A stretch of DNA of 64,000 bases, taken from positions 1 through 64,000 of the forward strand of contig CAJOCJ010000007.1 of the NCBI GenBank assembly GCA_905236635.1. Reading direction: 5' to 3'. Numbering within the stretch: position 1 is the first letter of the stretch; each line of letters starts with the position of its first letter. This DNA is from an uncultured Bacteroidales bacterium. GTDB lineage: Bacteria > Bacteroidota > Bacteroidia > Bacteroidales > F082. A program made the position numbers and the translations under genes. The notes under the pieces are model-generated. The model was given only the letters and a program-made list of their open reading frames with translations. It had not been told where the DNA came from and ran no database searches. This document shows, piece by piece, positions 12,297-15,506 of the stretch.

Positions 12297-13388
12297 TTAC
12301 TTTCCACTTTTTCGCCTGTTGCACTCTTTGCATAGCATTTGGCAGTTTTCGGCAGTGGTTTTACCACCGAGATGCCACGGAGTGATGTGATCAGCTTCCA
12401 TCTGATTTAACTCAAAATGATGACCGCAGTCGGCGCAGATGCCAAGCTGACGCTCGTAAGCCGACAGTTTCTGTGCATCAGTGAATGCCCTGATGGAAAG
12501 ATGCTTTTCCTTCCCAGTTAAAAGATATGGATAAATGCCAGTTTTCTTGGTAACGTCATCATCAAGGATGAGTCGGCTAACTTCTGCATCAATCTTATGA
12601 TAATCAAACACTTGATCTTTGTATTGCTTATAAAGAAAGCCCCAATCCACGCCTTTCATTATCTTTTTGCGCTCTTTCGTTGGGCGGAATGTGGTCTCAA
12701 CCCATGTTATAACCGATTGGAAAAACTGCCACAATGGTGCAGCGCTCGGATCGTGCTGGTGGTTCGACATATACACCTCAATGTTTCCGTCTGATATCCA
12801 TTTTATTGCAGTTTCCAGATACTCCTGTCGGATTGCCGAGCCAGTGAGGTAATCGGCACCAATCTTGGCTGCTGGAGCACCGTTTTTGCTAAAATAACGC
12901 TTGGCGTCGCTCACCCACGAGCCAGCGTAAACAGCGTTACGCAATTCTTGTTCGGTAAGCTCCTTTCCAGCGATGTTAATAGTACGGAACCATTTCAGTT
13001 TCTCGCTGTCGGTGCCGCTGCAGATATACACCTGAAGCTCGTAGTTGAGAATCTGCTCTTTCTCGTCGTCTTTGAGATTATGGAAATAGCGGAAATCGAA
13101 GGCGAAATCACATGTCACATACTGGCAGATGCTGATTGTGCGCTGTTGTCCGTCGATTATCTCAAACGTACCGTCTTCCCTTGTGGCCCAATACATTACG
13201 TTTAGCGGGAATCCCTGTGTTAGCGTGTCGATGACGGCGTTGCGTTCTTTATCGCCATAGACAAACTCACGCTGGTAAGGAGGTCGCACATCCAGTTTTC
13301 CGCCGTAAGCGCGCACTCCGTTTTCGTTATTGTCCTGATAGCCTTCAGTGAGCTCACGGACTGTTATTTTATGCAGTTCTATTTCCAT
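12297..13388 (-). CDS. DUF262 and HNH endonuclease fusion
   Basis: A protein of 363 residues. The N-terminal DUF262 (ParB/sulfiredoxin-like) domain shows YQREFVYGD and the signature DGQQRT at 79-84, seen in nucleotide-driven restriction proteins such as GmrSD and SspE. The C-terminus (318-363) is a compact zinc-type HNH nuclease: CADC, ADHI with His334, Asn348 and CKEC. The gene follows the methyltransferase by 11 nt on the same strand, so the two are likely one operon. I infer a restriction or anti-phage nuclease. Whether it cuts unmethylated or modified DNA is unknown. All expected nuclease residues are intact. Confidence 0.85.
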   Translation of the reverse strand: MEIELHKITVRELTEGYQDNNENGVRAYGGKLDVRPPYQREFVYGDKERNAVIDTLTQGFPLNVMYWATREDGTFEIIDGQQRTISICQYVTCDFAFDFRYFHNLKDDEKEQILNYELQVYICSGTDSEKLKWFRTINIAGKELTEQELRNAVYAGSWVSDAKRYFSKNGAPAAKIGADYLTGSAIRQEYLETAIKWISDGNIEVYMSNHQHDPSAAPLWQFFQSVITWVETTFRPTKERKKIMKGVDWGFLYKQYKDQVFDYHKIDAEVSRLILDDDVTKKTGIYPYLLTGKEKHLSIRAFTDAQKLSAYERQLGICADCGHHFELNQMEADHITPWHLGGKTTAENCQMLCKECNRRKSGK

Positions 13389-13399
13389 AATATGAAGTT

Positions 13400-14464
13400 T
13401 TAATATTTCTCAAATTTCTCAGCCGCCATTGGGAGCTCTGTTTCGGGTTGCTGGTATTGGACTAGTTGACGACGACGGATTAAAATACGACTATATACTC
13501 TTTTATTATTAAGCACAGCACAACCGCCTCTATCTTCTGGATGAGGTGTATAAGGAACAATTCCATAAAATTTGTTTAATCTGCTATTACCAGCACAAAT
13601 GCCCAATATCTCGAATTGTGTTGGGTTATATTTGTCCATAAATGTTATTGGAACTCCCATAAAGCCAGTATAATCCACCGGAATATCCGAAGTCTTGTCT
13701 ATATTTATTGCGTCATAATTATCATATTTCGGATAATCATCAGGATTATACTTTTTAAACAGAATCAAGTTTTCGTTTCGTTTTTGTATCTCTAGATTAG
13801 TAAACCAATTAACACCAGAAACACGAATCATTCCCTCCCTATGGTCACCAGCAGTAGCCACATCCTCGTATTTGCTGTAAAAATGTCCAGCACCTCCTTT
13901 AAAACCATAACCAAGCCATATTTTATTATCTCTTATCAAAGGAAAGAAATCCTTATTTGTAATAGCATTTTGATTTCCTATTATAACGAACTTCTTATCA
14001 TATTCTATAAGTTGAGCCACATATTCTCTAAACAATGAAAAAGGTGGATTTGTTACAACAATATCAGCTTCTTTTAATAATTCTATACATTCAGGAGAGC
14101 GGAAGTCGCCATCGCCATTAAAATAATGAATACCAATTTCTTCAGGGTCAGGCACCCGATTGCCATTTTTATCGCCATAATATTCAAGCCAAATAGCTCG
14201 TTCAGAATCATTTTGACTAAATAAATCTCTGTTTTGGTTTTTATAACATGTTGTGATAAGCTTTTTCAGGCCAAGTGCTTCAAAATTATAACTAAAATAG
14301 TGGAAAAAATTGCTAACACGTGGGTCATCACAATTACAAAGTACAACTTTATCTTTAAAATGCGTTTTATAGTGTTTTAATTCATTTTCAATATCAACAA
14401 GTTGAGTATAAAACTCATCTTTTTTAGCTTTACTTGCCGCATGAAGATTAACGTTGCCTGCCAT
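13400..14464 (-). CDS. Adenine-specific DNA methyltransferase, EcoRI family
   Basis: A protein of 354 residues similar to EcoRI-type N6-adenine methyltransferases. KDEFYT (15-20) resembles the cofactor-binding start of this family, CDDPRVSNFF (45-54) lies in the next conserved segment, and the catalytic NPPF motif is at 139-142. It should protect host DNA at the site cut by a partner nuclease, here probably the DUF262-HNH product 11 nt downstream. Recognition sequence cannot be inferred. The gene is visibly richer in A and T than its metabolic neighbours, suggesting transfer. Its transcript seems to start near 14782, giving a long structured leader. Confidence 0.88.
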   Translation of the reverse strand: MAGNVNLHAASKAKKDEFYTQLVDIENELKHYKTHFKDKVVLCNCDDPRVSNFFHYFSYNFEALGLKKLITTCYKNQNRDLFSQNDSERAIWLEYYGDKNGNRVPDPEEIGIHYFNGDGDFRSPECIELLKEADIVVTNPPFSLFREYVAQLIEYDKKFVIIGNQNAITNKDFFPLIRDNKIWLGYGFKGGAGHFYSKYEDVATAGDHREGMIRVSGVNWFTNLEIQKRNENLILFKKYNPDDYPKYDNYDAINIDKTSDIPVDYTGFMGVPITFMDKYNPTQFEILGICAGNSRLNKFYGIVPYTPHPEDRGGCAVLNNKRVYSRILIRRRQLVQYQQPETELPMAAEKFEKY

Positions 14465-14468
14465 AATA

Positions 14469-14497
14469 GATTGATAGATTGTGCAATGCTATCAATC
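14469..14497 (-). promoter_or_regulatory. Near-perfect palindrome 4 nt before the methyltransferase start
   Basis: GATTGATAG (14469-14477) and CTATCAATC (14489-14497) pair over 9 bp, and ATTG/CAAT inside the loop can add more. In the mRNA the hairpin ends 4 nt before the ATG and could hide the ribosome site; as DNA it could be an operator for autoregulation. No purine-rich ribosome site is visible. Confidence 0.6.
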
Positions 14498-14500
14498 ACA

Positions 14501-14543
14501 GAACGGATATAATGAAAGGTGTAAGACTTACACTTATCCGTTC
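14501..14543 (-). promoter_or_regulatory. Switch-like hairpin in the methyltransferase leader
   Basis: GAACGGATA (14501-14509) pairs with TATCCGTTC (14535-14543), and within it GTGTAAG (14519-14525) pairs with CTTACAC (14527-14533). Bases 14539-14543 also belong to the closing stem of the neighbouring structured element, so the two folds compete. Confidence 0.55.
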
Positions 14544-14704
14544 GCCGAGGTATGTAGGAAAACCTGTACTCAGAATAAGCCGCTCACACCTTTTACAGGT
14601 ATGAGCATCAGCCTACAATTTCTGTGAGTACACGGTATATTACAATACCTCTAACTAATTATTTCAGTAGTTCATTTGAAAACTTCCTACATTTCCGGCG
14701 AACG
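14539..14704 (-). ncRNA. Structured multi-helix RNA element in the methyltransferase leader
   Basis: A closing stem pairs 14539-14547 with 14696-14704 (9 bp) and 14552-14560 with 14684-14692 (9 bp). Inside are a helix 14565-14572/14625-14632, capped by a hairpin 14582-14591/14597-14606, plus hairpins at 14634-14649 and 14653-14672. The strand is assigned because the promoter box at 14789-14796 and the methyltransferase flank it on the minus strand. It matches no RNA family I recognise. A small non-autonomous inverted-repeat element is the main alternative. Confidence 0.55.
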
Positions 14705-14900
14705 CGAAATAATAGCTAATGCTTTGTTTTACAATATGTTAAATTTGTTTTACTCTTCTATTTTTTACAATAATCGTTTATAACTTTGCAAAATTACAAA
14801 GTTTTTGGAATAAAAAGAATTTTTTGGTGAAATTTTAGAAAAATGGCGGCGATTTAATGAAAAAAATCAGAAAAATAATACTGCGTATTGAAAAAAGTTG
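14705..14900. other. AT-rich intergenic promoter region
   Basis: No gene is supported here. The stretch holds the minus-strand promoter box of the methyltransferase and leads into a plus-strand box at 14901. It is strongly AT-rich. Confidence 0.5.
14789..14796 (-). promoter_or_regulatory. Promoter -7 box for the methyltransferase operon
   Basis: The minus strand reads TAATTTTGCA. A transcript beginning about 14782 would run some 318 nt before the methyltransferase ATG, far longer than the other leaders in the window. Confidence 0.5.
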
Positions 14901-14908
14901 TATCTTTG
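14901..14908 (+). promoter_or_regulatory. Promoter -7 box for a possible small RNA
   Basis: TATCTTTGCA on the plus strand. No annotated plus-strand gene follows until 16859, so a transcript from here would be a short RNA or run antisense to the unknown gene at 14993-15418. Confidence 0.45.
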
Positions 14909-14913
14909 CAGCG

Positions 14914-15021
14914 TCATATAGGGGAATTCGCAGAAAGGACGACAACCTTTATGGCTCTCAAAGCCGTTTCGAGCCCCAAAATCTACAAGCCATCACTCAT
15001 TTGAGACGATGGCTTTGTTGT
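14914..15021 (+). ncRNA. Candidate small RNA with terminal hairpin
   Basis: Downstream of the box at 14901 the sequence can form AAAGG/CCTTT (14934-14938/14946-14950), GGCT/AGCC (14953-14956/14962-14965) and a terminator-like stem AAGCCATC/GATGGCTT (14987-14994/15008-15015) followed by TGTTGTTT. The last stem overlaps the 3' end of the opposite gene, so it may serve both directions. I recognise no family. Confidence 0.35.
14951..15004 (+). CDS. Possible 17-residue leader peptide
   Basis: ATG 14951 opens MALKAVSSPKIYKPSLI. AAAGGA at 14934-14939 could be the ribosome site and is held in a small hairpin whose other arm ends at the base before the ATG. Too short to support from sequence alone; it may be chance. 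Confidence 0.2.
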   Translation: MALKAVSSPKIYKPSLI

Positions 15022-15418
15022 TTATCTGCGGAACCGTTATACAATATTGCACCAATTCTTGGTTTGAGCGCTGCAATCCGACAGTAAGCCTTATGTTTTC
15101 ATAACCCATAACGAGCATTTTTTCAAATTGCTTCTGGTTTGAAGTATTTCGTTTAGGTGGAATCTCTTTTATAAGTCGTGCGTTTTTCATAATCTCTGTC
15201 AGCTTTAAAACAGCCAATGTCGAATCATAACTTCTGGCAGCTTTTTCGTAAGTTTCATTAATGGATAAGAACTTGACGCAAATGTATCGTCCCAGTTCAT
15301 TGTTCATAACTTTTTTGGTCGGGTTCTCTGCTATCCATCTTGCGTAAAAATCCTTAATAATTCTTTCCCTTGTCTTTATGTCTTCCCTTGTTTTTCCTAC
15401 TGGTATATCCGGTTTCAT
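14993..15418 (-). CDS. Unrecognised 141-residue protein
   Basis: I do not recognise this protein. ATG 15418 is chosen because AAAGGAATT precedes it and a promoter box (15439-15446) stands just upstream; the frame is open 33 codons further but through that promoter. The sequence is charged and probably helical (KDFYARWIAENPTKKVMNNE, RSYDSTLAVLKLTEIMKNAR), with no signal peptide or membrane helix. The base composition is AT-rich like the methyltransferase nearby. Its last codons overlap the plus-strand terminator-like hairpin at 14987-15015. A DNA- or nucleic-acid-binding role is possible but unsupported. Confidence 0.6.
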   Translation of the reverse strand: MKPDIPVGKTREDIKTRERIIKDFYARWIAENPTKKVMNNELGRYICVKFLSINETYEKAARSYDSTLAVLKLTEIMKNARLIKEIPPKRNTSNQKQFEKMLVMGYENIRLTVGLQRSNQELVQYCITVPQINNKAIVSNE

Positions 15419-15438
15419 AATCCAATTCCTTTCAAATG

Positions 15439-15446
15439 CAAAATTA
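15439..15446 (-). promoter_or_regulatory. Promoter -7 box of the unrecognised gene
   Basis: The minus strand reads TAATTTTGCA, 20 nt before the ATG at 15418, leaving room for a short leader with the purine-rich AAAGGA. Confidence 0.55.
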
Positions 15447-15506
15447 CAAAGTTTTTGAAATAAAAGGGAAATTTTTGATAAACTTTTTGTTTGAGAGGAA
15501 AACAAA

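Follow-up and report, generated by a model that had tools for sequence, protein, structure and literature searches.

A predicted 5′ leader RNA family with mutually exclusive conserved helices upstream of DNA methyltransferase and other genes in Bacteroidota

The window analysed here, a stretch of 64,000 nucleotides from a contig of an uncultured Bacteroidales bacterium, contains a pair of minus-strand genes that PADLOC recognises as a type II restriction-modification (R-M) system. One codes for an EcoRI-type adenine DNA methyltransferase (MTase; 13400–14464; PF13651, E = 3.6e-138; PADLOC MTase_II) and its R-M partner for a protein with GmrSD_N and HNH nuclease domains (12297–13388; identified by Pfam and as PADLOC REase_II PDLC03418, E = 8.7e-137). 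The MTase start codon is an ATG at 14464–14462, and a predicted Bacteroidota −7 promoter box, TAATTTTG, is located at 14789–14796 on the same strand. From the position of this box transcription is predicted to start at about 14782, giving a minus-strand leader RNA that would extend down to 14465 and be about 318 nt long, in agreement with the length of about 320 nt given in an initial annotation of this DNA. An LPD3-domain gene (14993–15418, minus strand) is located upstream of the R-M pair, and its promoter-like stretch (15438–15458) is nearly identical to that of the leader (14787–14808). Inspection by eye also suggests a possible short plus-strand transcript at 14897–15025, partly antisense to the LPD3 gene, with a promoter-like TTG...TATCTTTGC near 14902 and, at about 14990–15024, a hairpin that resembles a terminator and precedes T residues.

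Covariance models distinguish two classes of related elements, class I being the type present in the window (about 285 nt) and class II being shorter (about 205–265 nt). The class I leader RNA element of the window is at 14463–14748 on the minus strand and occupies a 5′ UTR position directly ahead of a same-strand gene. The covariance model R1 finds it in its own genome with E = 2.5e-42, the window sequence itself being a member of R1, and the class II model R2, which was built without it, still scores 86.5 bits at 14471–14748. The predicted fold is unusually stable on the minus (transcribed) strand (z = −6.6, with none of 300 shuffles as low) and on the plus strand (z = −6.1, with none of 100 shuffles as low).

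Pairing and covariation were counted in an ordinary sequence alignment of 72 leaders, obtained from 84 full-length leaders that were reduced to 74 by a redundancy filter and from which L046 and L111 were then left out. Towards its 5′ end the leader has a near-invariant 5′ block (AACAUAUUGUAAAACAAAGCAUUAGCUAUUAUUUCGC; 14704–14740; all leader features are on the minus strand), followed by two closing stems that the initial annotation had described and that are present in the window with nine of nine pairs each. The first, P1, joins 14696–14704 to 14539–14547, has changes on both sides in all seven of its alignment pairs and is paired in 97.0% of cells. The second, P2, joins 14684–14692 to 14552–14560 and has both-sided changes in seven of eight alignment pairs; the window's own alignment row is out of register here, with two of eight column pairs, its true nine pairs being present nonetheless. 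P4 is formed by strand X (14598–14606) and strand X′ (14582–14590), and a third hairpin, P6 (14469–14497), ends 4 nt before the start codon, just as had been annotated. Across the 72 leaders these four helices together have 95.7% of their cells paired, and 24 of their 33 pairs have changed on both sides, in 260 cells against a shuffle mean of 70.8. Judged by this covariation, P1, P2, P4 and P6 are conserved helices, and the comparison with homologues that the initial annotation had called for thus yields many compensatory changes in P1, P2 and the ATG-side hairpin among the 72 relatives.

A further strand, X″ (14518–14525), is a third copy of the repeated strand and is complementary to X′; it is followed directly by a U-rich tract (14507–14517). 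The X′:X″ pairing and an additional helix, P8, are together paired in 91.4% of cells, with double changes in 11 of 13 pairs and in 124 cells, compared to 37.3 in shuffles, and two of the four column pairs of P8 are formed in the window. In 48 of 66 class I and 64 of 81 class II elements, X″ is a better fit to its own X′ than to the X′ strands of other members. The same helices emerge from a mutual-information column scan that was run before any structure was put into the columns; P2 and P1 pairs rank at the top, and next come pairs of X′:X″, P8 and P4, plus some that fit no helix. A helix PA, between 14716–14723 in the 5′ block and 14604–14611 just before P4, is paired in 86.6% of cells, and was rejected as a covarying helix because its covariation in the 72-leader alignment is no higher than in shuffles.

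Not all of these pairings can coexist. Since X′ also serves as the 3′ strand of P4, P4 and X′:X″ exclude each other, and compensatory changes are found in each of them. A second exchange involves P7, in which part of the 5′ block (CUAUUAUUUCGC; 14704–14715) pairs with 14489–14499, a segment that includes the 5′ strand of P6. P7 is paired in 98.3% of cells and slides of the register give only 25–58%. There is a single double change in P7 among the 72 sequences, whereas P6 covaries, and the case for P7 therefore rests on a nearly invariant block being complementary to its partner; changes to G-U on one side agree with its pairing and are no proof of it. At alignment columns 320 and 321, 88% and 100% of sequences have the P7 pair, as against 46% and 63% for P6. 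The initial annotation had seen the geometry of a switch in this leader, placing the competition between the closing stem and the next hairpin, here P5 (14501–14543), whose outer stem has nine of nine pairs in the window and reuses 14539–14543 of P1. That overlap is real in the window and recurs in only some rows of the alignment (by eye); mutually exclusive helices are indeed conserved, and the conserved alternatives are P4 versus X′:X″ and P6 versus P7.

The order in which these helices would arise was modelled with equilibrium partition functions on transcript prefixes (ViennaRNA), a treatment that ignores pseudoknots and is not one of kinetics. For growing prefixes of the window leader the predicted order is PA, then P4, P2 and P1, then P7 and finally P6. 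P7 reaches a probability of 0.98 in the prefix that stops within the P6 loop and is afterwards replaced by P6 at 0.93–0.96; forcing P7 costs 2.9 kcal/mol (−96.1 versus a minimum of −99.0). Over all 72 leaders, P7 is at 0.5 or above in 67 at this stage of transcription; in the complete leader, P6 is at 0.5 or above in 56 of them and P7 in 12, and the median cost of forcing P7 is 4.2 kcal/mol. Because those 12 leaders favour P7 over P6 at full length, the resting state would differ between copies. Pairing of the block with the P6 strand is at 0.89 in native leaders and 0.07 with the block shuffled (one shuffle each), the native value being the higher in all 72. Forcing X′:X″ into a nested fold costs about 22 kcal/mol in these pseudoknot-free calculations.

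Could a single working fold account for the same conservation? X″ and the 5′ block would then be held in fixed tertiary contacts, as pseudoknots, forming a site for a protein or small molecule, and there would be no exchange between P6 and P7. The near-invariance of the block would suit such a fold, as would the topology of PA and P8, which by crossing P1 and P2 would form pseudoknots, and P6 and X″ could be kept for protein binding instead. Nonetheless, X and X″ cannot both pair with X′ at once, yet both pairings covary, and one strand is common to P6 and P7; we therefore regard a single fold as unlikely.

Expression signals were counted around the elements. Where 110 nt of distinct sequence is available on the upstream side, this stretch contains the box TAnnTTTG for 45 of 68 class I and 60 of 91 class II elements; shuffling gives means of 3.0 and 6.7, respectively, and on the opposite strand the box is present for 13 of each class. 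It is most common 40–50 nt ahead of the element, which is the distance of the window's box, and the presence of a predicted box upstream of the window element and of so many class I relatives speaks against a transcription start downstream of 14539. Of the 8 nt that follow X″, five or more are T in 53 of 66 elements of class I and 68 of 81 of class II, where the background is 2.4 (class I) and 2.8 (class II) T per 8 nt. If X′:X″ acted as a terminator stem with this U-tract, its loop would enclose about 60 nt occupied by other helices.

BLAST comparison with the element gives matches in 26 of 100 genomes, most commonly to the far-5′ block and next to the ATG-side hairpin, the middle being diverged. 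Among the best 80 of 515 loci found by a protein search with the MTase, from which R1 was partly built, R1 places a strong class I leader, scoring 124 bits or more, upstream of the MTase in 44, and four more have a weaker match in place (30.8–51.5 bits), two of these being from Chitinophaga pinensis and an Alistipes sp. according to their record titles. Several of the leaderless loci begin at the gene itself, and R1 finds no leader at those of the 80 loci whose titles name other phyla. Throughout 503 kb of MTase loci, every R1 match of at least 30 bits is upstream of the MTase and within about 190 nt of it. When class I loci are instead collected with the models, best-scoring first (L155–L198, window included), 35 of 44 hold an EcoRI-type MTase; one of the nine others, L168 (the same as L141), is truncated because its contig stops shortly after an MTase-like frame begins. 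Complete or almost complete class I leaders are also located before GtrA-like, glycosyltransferase 2, DUF2334, GDSL lipase-like, acyltransferase 3, helicase-like and other genes (named through Pfam for five proteins and by eye for the rest). A leader specific to the MTase was therefore rejected, and MTase timing cannot be its whole purpose.

The R1 scores split into two groups, the lower of which corresponds to class II, whose members have the same 5′ block, P1, P2, P4, X″ and U-tract as class I. R1 finds matches in 74 of 99 genomes of the genus at E ≤ 0.01, the weakest of them possibly by chance, and in 34 of 295 genomes of the order, five of which have best scores below 31 bits and may likewise be chance. 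With R2 there are 2–29 matches (E ≤ 0.001) in each of 49 genus genomes that are at least 90% complete, some of which are class I elements since R2 finds these too, and at the level of the phylum 41 of 296 genomes match, own genome included. The window's genome has six R2 matches, and the five inspected are the window element, two before small HTH-like genes and two before secreted or lipoprotein-like genes (named by eye, with HTH confirmed by Pfam for one).

An association with DNA modification is apparent among the class II elements of the genus. First, a DNA-MTase domain scores above the Pfam cut-off in 13 of 20 proteins encoded directly behind class II elements, and these include C5, Eco57I, N6_N4, type III and N6_Mtase types. 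The 20 proteins, 19 from the genus together with the order-level L207 (an MTase), were drawn from 54 class II loci; of the remaining loci ten at order level and two of HTH-like type were scanned, and further members of an HTH-like sub-class, near-duplicates and small or uncertain frames were left out. Second, another set of 40 proteins (A3, from overlapping loci) has nine N6_N4, seven N6_Mtase, one C5 and four D12 matches, and as the weak D12 matches probably overlap N6_N4, some 17–18 of the 40 are counted as MTases. Third, an element is present upstream and on the same strand in 10 of 30 loci with an N6_N4 MTase (the 30 retrieved out of 69 matches across 30 genomes), eight of which are also found by R1, compared to none of the 30 integrase loci returned (one-sided Fisher p ~4e-4, calculated by hand). 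Leaders within one genus precede MTases from four or more Pfam families (PF13651, PF01555, PF02384/PF07669 and PF00145). No MTase was found behind the ten order-level class II elements, which gave one ResIII match, nor any DNA MTase among 22 proteins behind phylum-level ones, where TonB plug (four) and sigma-70 (two) domains occur. The MTase association holds within the genus and fades in more distant Bacteroidota, where other genes follow. The initial annotation had reasoned that RNA control would suit the timed MTase expression of R-M systems, and this link survives for the wider family, as a tie to DNA MTases in the genus, and not as an MTase-specific role of the leader.

These gene associations bear on whether the element might be a stand-alone, trans-acting small RNA that ends at the U-tract after X″, the gene behind it being just a neighbour or reached by read-through. 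The element has its own predicted promoter box and a U-tract, and some copies in distant Bacteroidota have no reading frame starting directly behind them; however, class I ends a few nucleotides before the start codon, where P6 covaries, and DNA MTases are the first frame behind the majority of the 20 class II elements just described, and we consider such a small RNA quite improbable.

Comparison with Rfam 15 at the gathering score gives no match anywhere in the window. Loci of 40 relatives give four matches (DUF805, DUF805b, rteR and tRNA), none of which covers the conserved 200-nt domain, and a known Rfam family was rejected for the loci scanned on this ground. Permissive scans give no match at E up to 2 for L238 and L301, and for the window element a single chance-level CRISPR repeat match (20.1 bits against a cut-off of 50). 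A description of this family was not recognised in the open-licence literature searched, and PMC9723704 describes other RNAs.

The window element has no match in plasmid or phage collections, and a class II 22-mer used as a check on such an origin likewise gave none. Matches to an 18-mer are present in 22 viral stretches, seven of them with weak R1 scores of 20.1–26.5 bits, and the eight stretches inspected look like chance, mostly coding coincidence. A phage or plasmid origin was therefore rejected, and R1 matches below about 30 bits are taken to be untrustworthy because of these chance-like viral scores.

Some loci have a more complex arrangement. In loci L102, L125 (6906–9175), L126 and L131 single genes (DUF1016, RhuM-like and others) follow one another in the same direction as arrays, and in front of each gene is either a full leader or the 5′ block alone, as a short form lacking the remaining RNA. 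The short forms before DUF1016 or RhuM-like genes are unexplained by pairing in cis. The 5′ block coincides with the start or end of a contig in L130, L132, L133 and L102 (G125:C9, G059:C15, G059:C21 and G001:C28, respectively), as if the block were repeated in those genomes. L126 and L131 represent the same site in two genomes and have the preceding gene and the leader in common up to the start codon, beyond which one has an acyltransferase and the other an EcoRI-type MTase; by eye, their P2 stems differ on both sides. The arrays are suggestive of integron-like cassettes, yet this was rejected as there is no fit, by eye, to a known attC consensus. That the element is a DNA-level boundary for gene-cassette exchange, with the RNA incidental, would agree with the block ahead of each array gene, the divergence of L126 and L131 at the start codon and the contig ends, but is highly improbable given that the stems have compensatory changes in all their parts, which suggests selection at the RNA level, that no recombinase was recognised by eye among the open reading frames beside the arrays and that the 30 integrase loci lack the element.

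We think it probable, from the sequence comparisons and modelled folds, that the element is a bistable 5′ leader RNA that acts in cis, has two folds in competition and in class I gates the start codon. Of the readings considered, this one is favoured by the conservation of mutually exclusive helices and by where P6 lies. We infer that the leader switches and that this affects expression; the balance might be tipped by a ligand, a protein, the ribosome, temperature or time alone. With the start codon immediately after it, P6 would hinder translation, whereas P7 would capture the 5′ strand of P6 and leave the AUG open. Because P7 would form before the 3′ strand of P6 is transcribed, a new transcript may be open at first and then tend to close. 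Pairing of X′ with X″ followed by the U-tract could add premature termination, above all in class II. Within the genus, the device would have been reused on DNA-modification and other exchangeable genes.

A broader and doubtful extension is that these are self-timing leaders throughout the phylum, in which strands of the 3′ half repeat those of the 5′ half so that partners are swapped during synthesis, allowing a brief window of translation before the leader locks; on the unrelated MTases of the genus, to which it would have been attached repeatedly, this would constitute an R-M timer without a controller protein. Were the bistable-leader reading right, a large structured-RNA family not found in Rfam would control exchangeable genes of Bacteroidota, and RNA control of restriction-modification would be directly testable with dozens of natural variants.

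The proposed leader has parallels among several known systems. Attenuators of transcription and translation include the expression platforms of riboswitches. They are similar in having a 5′ leader strand with two exclusive partners, a U-tract and a hairpin at the start codon; the elements here differ in that neither a known ligand nor an aptamer was identified, unsystematic inspection showed no leader peptide, and many unrelated accessory genes follow. The DUF805 and DUF805b RNAs (RF03081 and RF02914) are classed by Rfam as cis-regulatory, like the role proposed here, and their motifs are located directly downstream of two class II copies (L202:1811–1876 and L264:1473–1508); however, with 68 and 35 model positions they do not cover the conserved 200-nt domain, and neither has a match in the window. 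The FopS small RNAs of Bacteroides are, according to PMC11697453, a multicopy family with their own canonical promoters that acts in trans on SusC mRNAs. Compared by description, they are likewise multicopy Bacteroidota RNAs with promoters of their own, and differ in that the element here is a leader.

Control of R-M systems is usually explained by controller (C) proteins, which act on DNA, and by promoters. The likeness to C proteins lies in the control of R-M genes and in a sub-class of leaders that precede small HTH-like proteins; the difference is that the common part here is an RNA leader. This HTH-like sub-class comprises L214–L217, L219, L220, L223, L225, L226, L242, L315, L317, L250, L206 and L274. 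Ten of its proteins were aligned, one type being strongly conserved in the genus, and the small HTH-like proteins could be partners or regulators of the RNA.
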